DNA of 64,000 bases from Natronomonas salinimetallica (lineage in GTDB: Archaea > Halobacteriota > Halobacteria > Halobacteriales > Haloarculaceae), in contig NZ_JACDNQ010000005.1 in NCBI RefSeq assembly GCF_013839515.1, positions 1 through 64,000 of the forward strand. Reading direction: 5' to 3'. Positions 9,557 through 62,417 of this stretch are shown in pieces. Under the pieces are notes generated by a model. The model was given only the letters and a program-made list of their open reading frames with translations, ran no database searches and was not told the origin of the DNA. The position numbers were made by a program, and so were the translations under genes. Position 1 is the stretch's first letter. Every line of letters begins with the position of its first letter.

Positions 9557-9631
9557 CTATAGTAGAGATCGGAAGACGAGACACATTCGACCGCACGACG
9601 GCAGTGCGGTCGATGGGTACATAGTATTGTC
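9557..9631. repeat. 86-bp palindromic element family, diverged copy A
   Basis: It matches the copies at 45786-45871, 52983-53067 and 54186-54271 over its left three quarters, then diverges. The central 25-bp palindrome (9588-9612) has arms CGACCGCAC / GTGCGGTCG. Both the fourth base and its partner differ from the other copies, so base pairing is kept. Confidence 0.8.
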
Positions 9632-9641
9632 TTGCCCTTGC

Positions 9642-10403
9642 TCACACGCCGAGGTAGGTCTGGCGCAGTTCGTCGTCCTGGCGGAGTTCCTCGGTCGTCA
9701 CCTCGCCGACGATGTGACCTTCATCCATCACGTAGTGTCTGTCGGCCACCTCCATCGCCATCGCGGCGTTCTGTTCGACGAAGAGGACGGTGATCCCGTC
9801 CTCCTCGTTGATCGTCTCGATGATCTCCTCGACGCGCTCGACGATGAAGGGCGCAAGCCCCTCTGAGGGCTCGTCCAACAACATCAGGTCCGGATTCGCA
9901 GCCAACCCTCGGGCGATCGCGAGCATCTGTTGCTCGCCACCGCTCATGGCGCTGGCGTTCTTCGGCCGCATCTTTTCGAGTTCCGGGAACTGTTCCAGTA
10001 CCTCCTCGAGGTCCCGCGGATCGGGAGCGTGGTTGATCGCGACTCGGATGTTCTCCTCTACGGAAAGCTGCGGGAAGCAACGCCGGTCTTCGGGGACGAA
10101 GCTGATTCCCATATTGGAGATCTCGTAGGGGGGCTTACCCACCAGTTCCTCACCGCGGAACGTGATCGATCCGCCTAGGACGTTCGGGACGTCTGCCCCG
10201 ACGATCGACCGCATCGTCGTCGACTTGCCGGCCCCGTTCCGTCCGAGCAGCGACACGCGTTCACCGGGATAGACGTCGAGGTCGAGGCCGAACAGCACCT
10301 TGCCGGTCTCGTATCCGGATTCCAGCCCGCGGACTTTCAACAGCGGGTCACTCTCATCAGCCGGAACGTCAGTGTCGGTCGTTCGCGTAGTATCGGAGCT
10401 CAT
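9642..10403 (-). CDS. livF: Branched-chain amino acid-type ABC transporter ATPase LivF
   Basis: Second ATPase of a LivFGMHK-type importer (253 aa). Walker A GRNGAGKSTT (about 54-63), ABC signature SGGEQQ and Walker B LMLLDEPSEGL are intact. LivF subunits have the typical ENIRVA segment after the Q-loop (SFVPEDRRCFP). It is the last gene of the operon; its ATG overlaps the livG stop by four bases. The ~30 N-terminal residues (STTRTTDTDVPADESD) are a haloarchaeal acidic extension. The substrate could be branched-chain amino acids or a related small compound. Confidence 0.92.
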   Translation of the reverse strand: MSSDTTRTTDTDVPADESDPLLKVRGLESGYETGKVLFGLDLDVYPGERVSLLGRNGAGKSTTMRSIVGADVPNVLGGSITFRGEELVGKPPYEISNMGISFVPEDRRCFPQLSVEENIRVAINHAPDPRDLEEVLEQFPELEKMRPKNASAMSGGEQQMLAIARGLAANPDLMLLDEPSEGLAPFIVERVEEIIETINEEDGITVLFVEQNAAMAMEVADRHYVMDEGHIVGEVTTEELRQDDELRQTYLGV

Positions 10404-45785: not shown

Positions 45786-45871
45786 CTATAGTAGAGCTCG
45801 GAAGACAAGACACACTCGATTGCACGGCGGCCGTGCGATCGATGTGTACATAGTTGCGATGTCTGCTATAG
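45786..45871. repeat. 86-bp palindromic element, copy B
   Basis: Bounded by CTATAG at both ends. Central palindrome 45817-45841 with arms CGATTGCAC / GTGCGATCG; the T at position five turns a C-G pair into a G-U-type pair. Same family as 54186-54271 in inverted orientation. Confidence 0.9.
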
Positions 45872-52497: not shown

Positions 52498-52648
52498 GGC
52501 TGAAGGGAGGGGTCGAGCGTCGTCGACAGGTAACCAGTATCCGTCATGATAGAGACCAGACGCTACACCTCGAAAACGGTTGTCGTCCGATCGTCGAATC
52601 GACGCTCCCGTGTTTTGCCCCGGAGTGACCCCGCCGTAGTCCCAACGC

Positions 52649-52689
52649 AGCCCGCAATTTTGATATAGCAGTATATGATTTATGTATTC
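52649..52689 (-). repeat. Inverted partner Y of the repeat at 55995
   Basis: On the minus strand it reads GAATACATAAATCATATACT, then GCTATATCAAAATTGCGGGCT. It matches 55995-56033 at 29 of the first 33 positions. Both copies lie before outward-facing genes. Confidence 0.8.
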
Positions 52690-52982
52690 TCCATCGTACA
52701 TCACCTATTCCGCGTCGTCCCCCGACTCTGGACGGCACCCCCGAGCCCCGTTTCCGTACTGTGCGGGTCCGTCTCGATACGTACAGTCGGATTGGTGTCG
52801 GCACTCGGCCAAACAGGCATGTCCCTCCCTCTGGTTCTTTCCGCCGGGAATACGGGCGCGTATTGGATTATCGGATTTCACGGGCTGCGGCCAGCTTTGG
52901 GTTCAAGCGCTGTCTCTACCCACAAGTCGAGTCGCCGAGATCGATGAACCAGACTGATACTGTTTGCGATAACCATTTCAAG

Positions 52983-53067
52983 CTATAGTAAACATCGCAA
53001 CTATGTACACATCGATCGCACGGCCGCCGTGCGATCGAGTGTGTCTTGTCTTCCGAGCTCAACTATA
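52983..53067. repeat. 86-bp palindromic element, copy C
   Basis: CTATAGTAAACATCGCAACT start; perfect central palindrome 53013-53037 (arms CGATCGCACGGC / GCCGTGCGATCG). Nearly identical to copy D at 54186; the last base of the terminal CTATAG is altered. Confidence 0.92.
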
Positions 53068-53091
53068 TTCGCGCGACGGTGACGCGATAGC

Positions 53092-53779
53092 GGTCGCGTT
53101 AACTTTGGCGTGAGTTGTGGTGGACGGCGAGGGCTTGGGGCCACGATTCTGCTGTCTGTGGCTTGACATGGTTGAAACTCGTTGCGACCGAAGATGTTCG
53201 TTGTTCTATTTCTCAAAAGACACGTTCGATGGCATTCCGATTCCCGTGTGAAATCATCTGGAATCGATACCCACCTCCTTGTAACACGTTCACTAAGTAA
53301 TCAGCATCATCAACGAGAAATTCGACGCCATTAAGCCGGTACCGGCGATGTAACTCGGTTAGAAATCATCGCGTTGTCTGTTTCGTCGTCGGAAACAGCC
53401 TGAGCTGCGAGATTTCGTTCGTTTCGGAATCGACAGCACCGTACAGCCAGTAGTCGCCGCCGTTGACGCGGATCACTTTCTCGTCGACGGCGAGGTAATC
53501 CGCAGTCACCGTCGAAAGTGGCTGTAGATCGGCCTTCTGCACCCAGTTATGAACAGCGACGTGACTGCGGTCGGCTCCCAACGCATCGAGAAACTGACTG
53601 GCATCCCGCGGTGACATACCTGCAAGATGACACCGGATGCCCACTCGAATCGCCCATTCGGGAGTCCGCTTGCGCTCCACAAATGACAAGTCGATCCACT
53701 CGATACATCCGCTGAGGCGGTCGGATTCTGTCATAGACACTCAGAACTCGCCCGCCTCATCCTCTAAGTTAACGCGACC
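53092..53779 (-). mobile_element. IS6-family insertion sequence
   Basis: About 688 bp bounded by 14-bp inverted repeats GGTCGCGTTAACTT (53092-53105) and its complement at 53766-53779. It contains one transposase frame. Size and ends match haloarchaeal IS6-type elements. No 8-bp target duplication is visible, suggesting an old insertion or rearrangement. Confidence 0.85.
53099..53740 (-). pseudogene. IS6-type transposase with two in-frame TGA codons
   Basis: Full-length DDE transposase frame (213 codons) from MSMTESDRLSGCIEWIDLSF. Asp in LAVDEKVIR, Asp in EFLVDDADYL and Glu in the REIEQRTSS-like part form the DDE triad, so all catalytic residues remain. The frame is interrupted by TGA at 53366-53368 and again about 50 codons later (after AIERVF). 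Both are explained by single C-to-T or G-to-A changes (Trp/Arg codons). No frameshift. Inactive unless suppressed. Confidence 0.9.
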
Positions 53780-53984
53780 CCCGAATCGCCCCACACCTTG
53801 ATGGTCCGATTACAGGTCGGGGTCGACAGCGCCTGAAATATTCGTTTGGGACCGGTGAACGTATCGGTAAGAGACAGGTTCAAGGGGTGGGCTATCATAC
53901 GATAGAGGGAGAATCAGGCTGTGGACGGAGCGATTCCCGCCAGTCCGACGGTGGCGGTCTGCCCGCCCCGAGCAACGAAGCATT

Positions 53985-54180
53985 GACATCCTCCTCCGCC
54001 TTCAGGCGGAGGAATCCCGAGTCAAGCGAATCGAAGATTCGCGTACGTCGCAAATCTCCGATTTGCTCAGCGTTGGGCGTTTCAGGTTCAACAATCCCAC
54101 CAAACACCCAACCAGTCCGAGTCTGGGAGGGTGTTCACGGGCTATAGCGGGTGGGACTGCTGGCGGTGCCAAGCCGCCGG
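53985..54180. mobile_element. Probable IS200/IS605-type element end
   Basis: GACATCCTCCTCCGCCTTCA begins a hairpin (CCTCCGCC / GGCGGAGG, 53993-54012) of the kind found at the right ends of haloarchaeal TnpB elements. Two more tri-loop hairpins follow (54026-54042 and 54050-54066). No TnpB or TnpA coding sequence remains. Confidence 0.5.
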
Positions 54181-54185
54181 TACTC

Positions 54186-54271
54186 CTATAGTAAACATCG
54201 CAACTATGTACACATCGATCGCACGGCCGCCGTGCGATCGAGTGTGTCTTGTCTTCCGAGCTCAACTATAG
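54186..54271. repeat. 86-bp palindromic element, copy D
   Basis: Complete copy bounded by CTATAG on both ends with the 25-bp perfect central palindrome at 54216-54240. Best reference copy of the family. Confidence 0.93.
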
Positions 54272-54416
54272 CGTTGCCGAATTGATGAGTCCGAGATCGG
54301 TCACAAGTATACCGGTCAAACCCCAAGGGTCAGCGTCGAAAAGCATCACTGCACGACCTCAATATACGTACTCGTAGACCACTGTTCTACGAAAGCATGG
54401 ACGAAGACTCTGTTTT

Positions 54417-54510
54417 GTATTTGTATGAGTACAGCTTTAACGAGTAAGTTAATGTGGAAATACAAATAGAATGCTGATCCCCCGCGTACGGTAGCATCGT
54501 AAATACAAAT
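54417..54510. promoter_or_regulatory. Three AAATACAAAT-type sites upstream of the regulator
   Basis: GTATTTGTAT at 54417-54426 (opposite strand) and AAATACAAAT at 54458-54467 and 54501-54510, the last two 43 bases apart. They precede the DUF5805-like gene and may be its operators. Confidence 0.45.
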
Positions 54511-54571
54511 AAGGGCCTTTATTTGGGTGTCTGACATAAATTCAAGTACCGCGCGGACGACGCGTACGTAT

Positions 54572-54985
54572 ATGAGCGACGAGGCCGAACGTGTCGCAGT
54601 ACAGACCTACGTCCCGGCGTATCAAAAGGATCTCTGGGCGGACGATGCCGATCGGATGGGTGTTTCCCGGAGCGAATTCGTTCGGATGATGGTGCAGGCT
54701 GGACGAAGCGAGTTCGAACTGCCCCCATCGCACGAATCGAACGGGCGTTCCGCGGATGTGAACCGGCCACCGCCGGCGCGGGACGGGGAAGGCGTGTTCC
54801 GAAAACGCGTCCTGGAAATACTGTCCCCCGAGACCCCCAGAGACTGGGACGAACTCGTTGCTGCACTGACCGAAGAGCTAGAAGCGGAACTAGACCAGAC
54901 CCTAGAGGAACTCCAACAGGACAACGTAGTCAGATACAGCGGTCGCCACGGCGGATATCTCATCTGCGAGGAGCATGACGGATAG
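54572..54985 (+). CDS. Small regulator-like protein encoded with the integrase (DUF5805-like)
   Basis: 137 aa from ATG 54572. The N-terminal ~45 residues (VAVQTYVPAYQKDLWADDAD, then MGVSRSEFVRMMVQAGR) look like a ribbon-helix-helix DNA-binding domain and resemble a haloarchaeal family I know as DUF5805. The C-terminal half is a winged-helix-like segment (FRKRVLEILSPETPRDWDEL, then VVRYSGRHGGYLI). It overlaps the integrase gene by 11 bases, so they are coexpressed; probably an excision or expression control protein. The 15-residue extension from 54527 is not needed. Confidence 0.75.
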   Translation: MSDEAERVAVQTYVPAYQKDLWADDADRMGVSRSEFVRMMVQAGRSEFELPPSHESNGRSADVNRPPPARDGEGVFRKRVLEILSPETPRDWDELVAALTEELEAELDQTLEELQQDNVVRYSGRHGGYLICEEHDG

Positions 54986-55982
54986 ATCGATCGATCCGAT
55001 CGGGTACTTCCTCGAAGACATGGAACAACACGGCCGTTCACAACGAACTATCGACGCCTACGGGCGTGTCCTCAAGGAATTCGAACGATACGTGGACGCG
55101 GCGTTCGATACGACCCCCGCTGGAGCATCGTATCGCGATTGTACTGCCTGGATCAATACGATCCGACAGGAAAACGCCGAAAGTACCGTCGCATCGTACG
55201 CTTCGTACCTGAATCGGTTTTACGTGTACATGACGCAGGTGGGCGTACTCGACGAGAACCCCATGGCCCTCGTCATAGAGGAGATGGACGAAACGATCGA
55301 CGCGAACCCGACCAGGCGTGACGTTTCGGTGCCCGCCATGCGGGAGTTCGTGGGGCTGATCGAACACCCCCTTCATAAGGCCGTAGTCGTCACGTTATTA
55401 AAAACGGGGATACGGGCGGGGGAACTCGCCAATCTCGACGTACGTGACCTCTCGATTGGGGTCCTCGACCACGATCCGAGGCCACAACTGGAGCAGAAGG
55501 GAAATTCGCTGTTCGTCTCCCCCGATCGATCACACGGCGAACGTTCCGAAGGCGAACGACGGAACGCCTCGAACAAGCGAAAACGCCAGACGGTCATTCC
55601 GATCGACGGGGAGTTACGGAACGTTCTTCTCCGGTGGCTTGCGGTTCGTCCTGACACGGACTCGCCTGCCAAGCCCCTCTTCACCCACACGTCGAAAAAA
55701 TGGGGGAAGCGGATCTCCCCCGATGCGGTCCATCACATCGTCGAAACGTACGCGAGAGAAAACGGCTGGTACCGCACGGGGGGAAGCGCCGAGGAAAACG
55801 TCACACCTCATTACTTCCGGCACTTCTTTACGACACACCTGAGAGACCGGACGGGGGATCGCGGCATCGTCAAGTATCTCCGTGGGGACGTCGCGACGGA
55901 CGTTATCGATACGTACACGCACAACTGGGGCGATCGAGTCCGGACGGTGTACGAGGCGAACATCTACCGGGTGGTGGATTGA
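54975..55982 (+). CDS. Tyrosine recombinase / integrase (XerC/D-like)
   Basis: 335 aa. N-terminal SAM-like core-binding domain (RSQRTIDAYGRVLKEFERYV), then the catalytic domain with Arg in KTGIRAGELANLD, the HxxR box as PHYFRHFFTTH, His in DTYTHNWGDRV and nucleophile Tyr in VRTVYEANIY. All catalytic residues are present, so it should be active. It is the only complete recombinase in the mobile zone and directly precedes topoisomerase VI. Whether it belongs to an integrated element or is a fixed chromosomal gene is open. Confidence 0.9.
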   Translation: MTDRSIDPIGYFLEDMEQHGRSQRTIDAYGRVLKEFERYVDAAFDTTPAGASYRDCTAWINTIRQENAESTVASYASYLNRFYVYMTQVGVLDENPMALVIEEMDETIDANPTRRDVSVPAMREFVGLIEHPLHKAVVVTLLKTGIRAGELANLDVRDLSIGVLDHDPRPQLEQKGNSLFVSPDRSHGERSEGERRNASNKRKRQTVIPIDGELRNVLLRWLAVRPDTDSPAKPLFTHTSKKWGKRISPDAVHHIVETYARENGWYRTGGSAEENVTPHYFRHFFTTHLRDRTGDRGIVKYLRGDVATDVIDTYTHNWGDRVRTVYEANIYRVVD

Positions 55983-62186: not shown

Positions 62187-62417
62187 GTCCGACGTAGGCG
62201 TCGAGGGTTCTTATACTGACGGACAAAAAAATGTACACACGACGCACGAGGATCCCGCCGTTCGCTCCGTCGAACGGCGGATCACTCGTGAGTCGGTTTC
62301 ATTTGATTTCGTCCACCAGTATTAAGCGTCCGTCCGGTCGGTGGCCCACGGCTCGCCATCGGGGTCGCCGACCGACGTCCCGGTCGGAAGCGTCGGACGC
62401 GGCTCGTATGCGGGTGC
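62187..62417. other. Intergenic region with a strong hairpin
   Basis: No gene seen. CCGCCGTTCG (62255-62264) pairs with CGAACGGCGG (62271-62280), a 10-bp stem with a six-base loop. It lies between the HAD gene start and the PH-domain gene end, so it could end the latter's transcript. Confidence 0.55.

Follow-up and report, generated by a model that had tools for sequence, protein, structure and literature searches.

The window, by which we mean the whole stretch of 64,000 nucleotides that was analysed, belongs to the draft genome (G000) of a Natronomonas sp. with 2.78 Mb in 30 contigs and a completeness of 99.96% (the own genome in the following). It holds four copies of a short palindromic repeat, which is in all likelihood a miniature mobile element (MITE), and further features close to them:

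54187..54270 (+): putative MITE copy of 84 bp including the flanking TA, built as TA + TAGT...ACTA + TA; target C-TA-G
52984..53067 (+): putative MITE copy with the same 84-bp sequence as at 54187; target C-TA-T
45787..45870 (−): putative MITE copy, 95% identical, with two co-directional genes around it
9558..9625 (−): diverged, partial putative MITE copy in which arm 1 lacks its outer 16 bp
54216..54240 (no strand): central 25-bp palindrome CGATCGCACGGCCGCCGTGCGATCG
53366..53740 (−): partial IS6-family transposase fragment (NF033587, E 9.6e-23), outside the repeat
53992..54188 (−): sub-threshold sot0042 RNA match (24.1 bits compared to a gathering score of 88), outside the repeat

An earlier, sequence-only reading of this DNA had described four copies, at 9557, 45786, 52983 and 54186, that share a 25-bp central palindrome, and all of these are present. 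The copies at 52983 and 54186 proved to be near-identical, the one at 45786 is inverted, and the one at 9557 has diverged. The GATCGCAC/GTGCGATC core of the palindrome is nearly invariant across haloarchaeal relatives. The 52983 copy shares 85 of 86 bases with the 86-mer at 54186-54271 and sits inside another repeat, the empty version of which reads TTTCAAGCTATTCGCGCG in locus L034. The diverged copy at 9558..9625 lies about 17 bp downstream of a predicted minus-strand gene ending at 9642. The mobile neighbours named in that reading were also recovered: the copies at 52983 and 54186 enclose the IS6-family fragment, and the match to the haloarchaeal sot RNA, previously described as an IS605-like end, directly adjoins the latter copy. 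Additionally, a XerA/XerC-like tyrosine recombinase, scoring below the model cut-offs, was observed at 54975-55982 (+) near this cluster, which is possibly a mobile island.

A BLAST search of the own genome with the 86-mer, as had been suggested, revealed 41 near-full-length places with 89-100% identity as well as partial ones. The end motif matched 115 times in a pattern count, compared to 0 matches for the reversed control. The repeat is real and far beyond chance. Besides the four window copies, the genome holds at least about 50 others; 54 copies were used for the analysis of pairing. Exact-pattern scans of genome and viral contigs gave zero matches.

Alignment of the copies with their flanks showed a common unit TATAGT...ACTATA of 84 bp in nearly all intact copies. 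These boundaries are constant, whereas the flanks of many copies are unrelated to each other. The base outside the unit is C in 39 of 51 left flanks and G in 39 of 53 right flanks, and the C-TA-G context occurs in 17 of 38 intact copies, although CTAG makes up just 1–2% of TA contexts. Since the outer base follows a target preference, the outer C and G belong to the target, and CTATAG is not the element's own end. The earlier description of an 86-bp unit with CTATAG ends has to be revised accordingly to 84 bp with the ends TATAG...CTATA. Its statement that all four copies end in CTATAG does not hold either, as the 9557 copy is without its second end and the 52983 copy ends in CTATAT. A CTAG preference has been published for IS630 (Tenzen and Ohtsubo 1991, as given in the reference list of PMC2170065), and the preference of the element is IS630-like in this respect.

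The 52983 copy can be compared with a paralogous empty site. At the filled site the sequence is TTTCAAGC-TA[TAGT...ACTA]TA-TTCGCGCG, while L034 shows TTTCAAGC-TA-TTCGCGCG, with the longer right flank TTCGCGCGACGG in both cases. This one clean empty site is consistent with an insertion under duplication of TA, and the flank statistics agree with it. For orthologous sites the genome G003, which we take to be N. moolapensis, was used with all of its sequence but the last 0.5 Mb. The own insertion at C27:35519 is absent from the orthologous locus there, and homology resumes at the right edge of the element. It is the only locus with a clean absence, seen at the right edge, in N. moolapensis, where the flanks are about 85% identical and intergenic stretches are mostly too diverged. 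Two further observations concern the surroundings of insertions. L034, L086 and positions 52972-53085 of the window share another repeat, TTTCAAGCTATTCGCGCGACGGTGACGCGATAGCTTCACG. An 84-bp element borders this repeat in L034 and L086 and interrupts it at 52983, which makes it a possible insertion hot spot. Furthermore, two identical copies form a head-to-tail tandem with an 80-bp period at own C23:234703-234867 (L034:2205-2368); no extra TA lies between them, and the pair may have arisen by tandem duplication or from a circle-like product.

The element is short, contains no open reading frame or transposase gene and carries terminal inverted repeats. The absence of an open reading frame together with the inverted ends points to a miniature element of the IS630/Tc1-mariner type. 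A candidate for the partner transposase with such ends, which the sequence-only reading had proposed to look for, was found in the form of a haloarchaeal IS630 clade outside the own genome. No DDE_3 transposase was found in the 30-contig, 99.96% complete draft itself, so that mobilisation there either lies in the past or was performed by another enzyme. N. moolapensis and N. aquatica F2-12 (G008, a genus-mate of the own genome according to GTDB) contain many DDE_3 transposases, and the element is also present in both. Their IS630 transposases (PF13358, NF033545) are bordered by TATAGTAaCCGTTAGAA... and TATAGTAGACATTAGAA..., and the same ends occur at most of 80 other haloarchaeal loci. One N. 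moolapensis IS630 at C1:1115901-1116962, with a transposase belonging to NF033545/PF13358 by profile, starts with TATAGTAGTCGGTAGAAC and ends with TATAGTAGACACTAGAAG; it is made up of two ORFs that probably depend on frameshifting. Among the 80 haloarchaeal relatives, in which both ends are mostly recognisable, the consensus is TATAGTAACCGTTAGAACTTT... for the left and TATAGTAGACATTAGAAATAATTGCTCA for the right end.

The ends of the element resemble these transposon ends. For comparison, the arms were scored against the IS ends leaving out the first six bases, with the 138 TATAGT sites of N. moolapensis as background. The arms of several subfamilies score above nearly all of the background sites, and the best-scoring background sites are IS630-clade ends themselves. 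The weak case is arm 2 of the own genome against the left-end model, where 19 of the 138 background sites equal or exceed its score. The orientation is the same in 24 of 24 diverse elements, which share ancestry: arm 1 resembles the left IS end and arm 2 the right one. An IS with ends identical to the own subfamily was not found, the best consensus match being 22–23 of 30 bases. A decayed IS630 in genome G013 ends in TATAGTAACCATCAGAAGTAATTACCC, which is near to the N. moolapensis element end TATAGTAACCATCGCAAGTGATTACAC. As a separate observation, which concerns L223, L222 and many of the loci L232-L311, the IS630 transposase is divided between two overlapping frames. In the two translated copies, L223 and L222, the split lies close to lysine-rich A runs, suggesting programmed frameshifting.

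To describe the distribution, a covariance model was built from 48 elements and applied to 394 Halobacteria genomes of 86 genera with a threshold of E<=1e-4. Matches occurred in 169 genomes and 45 genera. Among the matches listed, the best ones (E to 1e-19) span all 84 positions; since ranking by score favours full-length copies, this constancy of length is suggestive. Twenty loci found by the model end in TATA and are mostly flanked by C...G. Both the element and the IS clade are present in 60 genomes, a significant association (odds ratio 3.0, Fisher p=6e-6, uncorrected for phylogeny), whereas 109 of the 169 element-bearing genomes, the own genome included, are without the IS clade at the threshold used.

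Taken together, we regard the 84-bp repeat with high confidence as a non-autonomous MITE of the IS630 type (Tc1/mariner superfamily), presumably mobilised by the haloarchaeal IS630 clade. In this reading, the two 30-bp arms are the counterparts of the clade's left and right ends. An IS630 transposase provided in trans would bind both ends and excise an 80-bp core, which would then insert at TA, preferring CTAG, with the TA being duplicated. The copies of the own genome are probably immobile now, as they are found there with no detectable transposase, while close relatives keep both. The similarity of the arms may be explained by the need of the transposase for two compatible ends and by template switching, which homogenises imperfect palindromes.

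In principle, the arms could also be complementary through selection on a hairpin, either in RNA (a terminator or processing site) or as a single-stranded DNA structure, as the sequence-only reading had proposed from base changes that seemed to preserve pairing. We consider this explanation unlikely, although several observations speak for it. Among the 24 diverse elements, 32 cells with two-sided changes were counted compared to 10.0 +/- 2.3 in shuffles, numbers that are inflated by relatedness. Pairs 13/72 and 29/55 switch cleanly between CG and UA, and pairs 12/73 and 30/54 nearly so. Between subfamilies, 21 coordinated two-sided cells were found versus 5.2 after shuffling, and in the own genome paired sites diverge less (4.0%) than unpaired sites (10.6%). 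Within the own genome, however, 1431 of 1497 pair cells in the 54 copies are paired while 1427 are expected from independent columns, so that the supposed preservation of pairing shows no excess among these copies. Pair-breaking changes also occur in the arms: of 105 one-sided changes, 41 disrupt pairing, close to the pattern named beforehand as counter-evidence. Two-sided changes are limited to eight cells.

The two exchanges on which the proposal had been built were followed across the copies. The change from T4-A22 to C4-G22 is real and corresponds to pair 33/51, but this pair shows no linkage across the genome (TA 27, TG 20, CG 5, CA 2; Fisher p=0.23). The change of C5-G21 to U-G in copy B amounts to a C-A mismatch on the opposite strand. 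Overall, one-sided transition states would form U-G at 10 pairs if the read strand is considered and at 17 pairs for the opposite strand. Neither transcript is favoured, and this absence of a strand preference speaks against selection on a hairpin.

Homogenisation of the arms offers another origin for coordinated changes. In L017 of the own genome and in L314, L316 and L319 of other genomes, whole tracts of one arm bear the sequence of the other, in both directions and including positions 8, 10 or 15, which are ordinarily unpaired. Template switching during replication is known to homogenise arms and can mimic compensatory evolution without selection (PMC8794818, PMC8604942). We infer that it is the cause of the homogenisation observed here. 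The sequence-only reading was right in seeing a dispersed palindromic family with arms that remain complementary while they diverge, but among the copies of the own genome pairing shows no excess. Selection on a hairpin is partly supported in the same sense: coordinated changes occur only between subfamilies, where other explanations are sufficient. Arm-to-arm copying and two transposase-compatible ends suffice, so that selection on a hairpin of RNA or single-stranded DNA need not be invoked.

Genes were called with a simple codon-based method, and almost every copy fell into an intergenic region. Among the 44 classifiable intergenic copies of the own genome, 22 lie between convergent genes, where about 21% are expected, and 2 between divergent genes, where about 32% are expected. 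This distribution would suit a transcribed hairpin, and a terminator role for copies between convergent genes is possible. Purging of insertions from promoters, however, suffices to account for the gene context, and N. moolapensis shows no bias with 4 convergent versus 4 divergent cases. An Rfam search of window positions 52500-54600, likewise in disfavour of an RNA element, gave no qualifying match; the lone sub-threshold one begins at the edge of the element and is not the element itself.

Two other classes of small repeats were considered. In Haloquadratum, small mobile repeats (SMRs) were defined by terminal repeats unrelated to any transposon and by the lack of a target duplication. Similar size (80–110 bp), prominent terminal repeats and nested insertions with other mobile elements (L072, L075, L076) are reminiscent of them, but the ends match the IS630 clade and the empty site fits TA duplication, both contradicting the definition, which makes this assignment highly improbable; it fails on the relation of the terminal repeats to the IS630 clade. 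It is hardly credible that the element is a PATE or resembles REP, with an IS200/IS605 (Y1) transposase mobilising it through a hairpin in single-stranded DNA: the palindrome is strong and an IS605-like end adjoins the 54186 copy, but such adjacency concerns one of about 54 copies. PATEs are without terminal inverted repeats or duplication (PMC3119063), whereas the element has terminal inverted repeats and TA/CTAG targeting, and the reading as PATE or IS200/IS605 derivative fails on these repeats.

For the MITE, the 84 bp of which equal about eight helical turns, a further function may be considered. The length, the asymmetry of the arms and the near-invariant central GATCGCAC...GTGCGATC palindrome might have been kept across 45 genera for a purpose beyond transposase recognition, either as a minimal DNA substrate of fixed geometry that is mobilised unusually efficiently by IS630 transposases or, where genes converge, as a host 3'-end, terminator or protein-binding site. 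We regard this as a tentative and rather improbable extension.

Several related arrangements were noticed. In four own loci arm 1 is expanded into 5–7 tandem units of about 17–18 bp, CTATAGTAGACATCGCAA or CTATGTACACATCGCAA:

C26:149876-149961: expanded arm 1 (L007)
C25:184781-184852: expanded arm 1 (L032)
C10:41334-41420: expanded arm 1 (L029)
C23:159053-159178: expanded arm 1 (L074)

Each unit has the transposon-end motif, and no arrays of arm 2 were seen. Another MITE family, TACTGACGGACAAAA...CACCAGTA with a length of about 108 bp, occurs at window positions 62214-62321 and in L012, L020, L024, L028, L072, L075, L076 and L082. Its members frequently lie inside the 84-bp element or directly next to it. 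The flanks suggest TNA duplications (TTA, TGA, TAA), and the ends are similar to those of two other N. moolapensis IS630 groups, TACTGACGGCTAAA... and TACTGAGGGCTAAA.... In Natronomonas aquatica (L044:1577-1688) an abutting second palindrome, TACAGTAGTCGGTAGAAG...CTACTGACTACTATA, has an end closely matching the N. moolapensis IS630 end and apparently represents a further MITE subfamily that belongs to this IS clade.

A palindrome resembling a conserved RNA element is thus explicable as a MITE, with arms matched via transposition and DNA replication. Many haloarchaeal repeats are united in a single family for which a transposase clade can be proposed, and the element would mark past IS630 activity where the enzyme was lost. 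The family is also a natural test set for template-switch homogenisation of arms in archaea. We found no description of it in the papers searched; ISfinder and subscription journals were outside the scope of this search and no priority is claimed.

The transposase-free repeats of Haloquadratum walsbyi (SMR, MITE and PATE) are likewise haloarchaeal with sizes of about 80–110 bp and larger, but SMRs have no related transposon and no duplication and PATEs no terminal inverted repeats; the main text of that report mentions no MITE of the IS630 type (PMC3119063). The Correia/NEMIS elements of Neisseria (about 107 bp) have TA termini, inverted repeats of about 24 bp and stem-loop transcripts (PMC2229807), for which, in the case of Correia, processing by RNase III was proposed; they are likened to the present family by their architecture. 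Comparable systems are the 89-bp MITE related to ISMma9 (IS630) of Methanosarcina mazei and RUP with IS630-Spn1. The former is archaeal, IS630-derived and nearly of the same size, known in five copies from one methanogen and likened here by its description (table in PMC3852290). RUP of Streptococcus pneumoniae (107 bp) is also a small intergenic MITE inserting at TA, with ends resembling an IS630-family IS and often nested with other IS, as here (PMC2229807). It differs in host domain and sequence, and the haloarchaeal arms reach almost to the centre. RUP was described from one species, whereas the haloarchaeal family occurs in 45 of 86 sampled genera.
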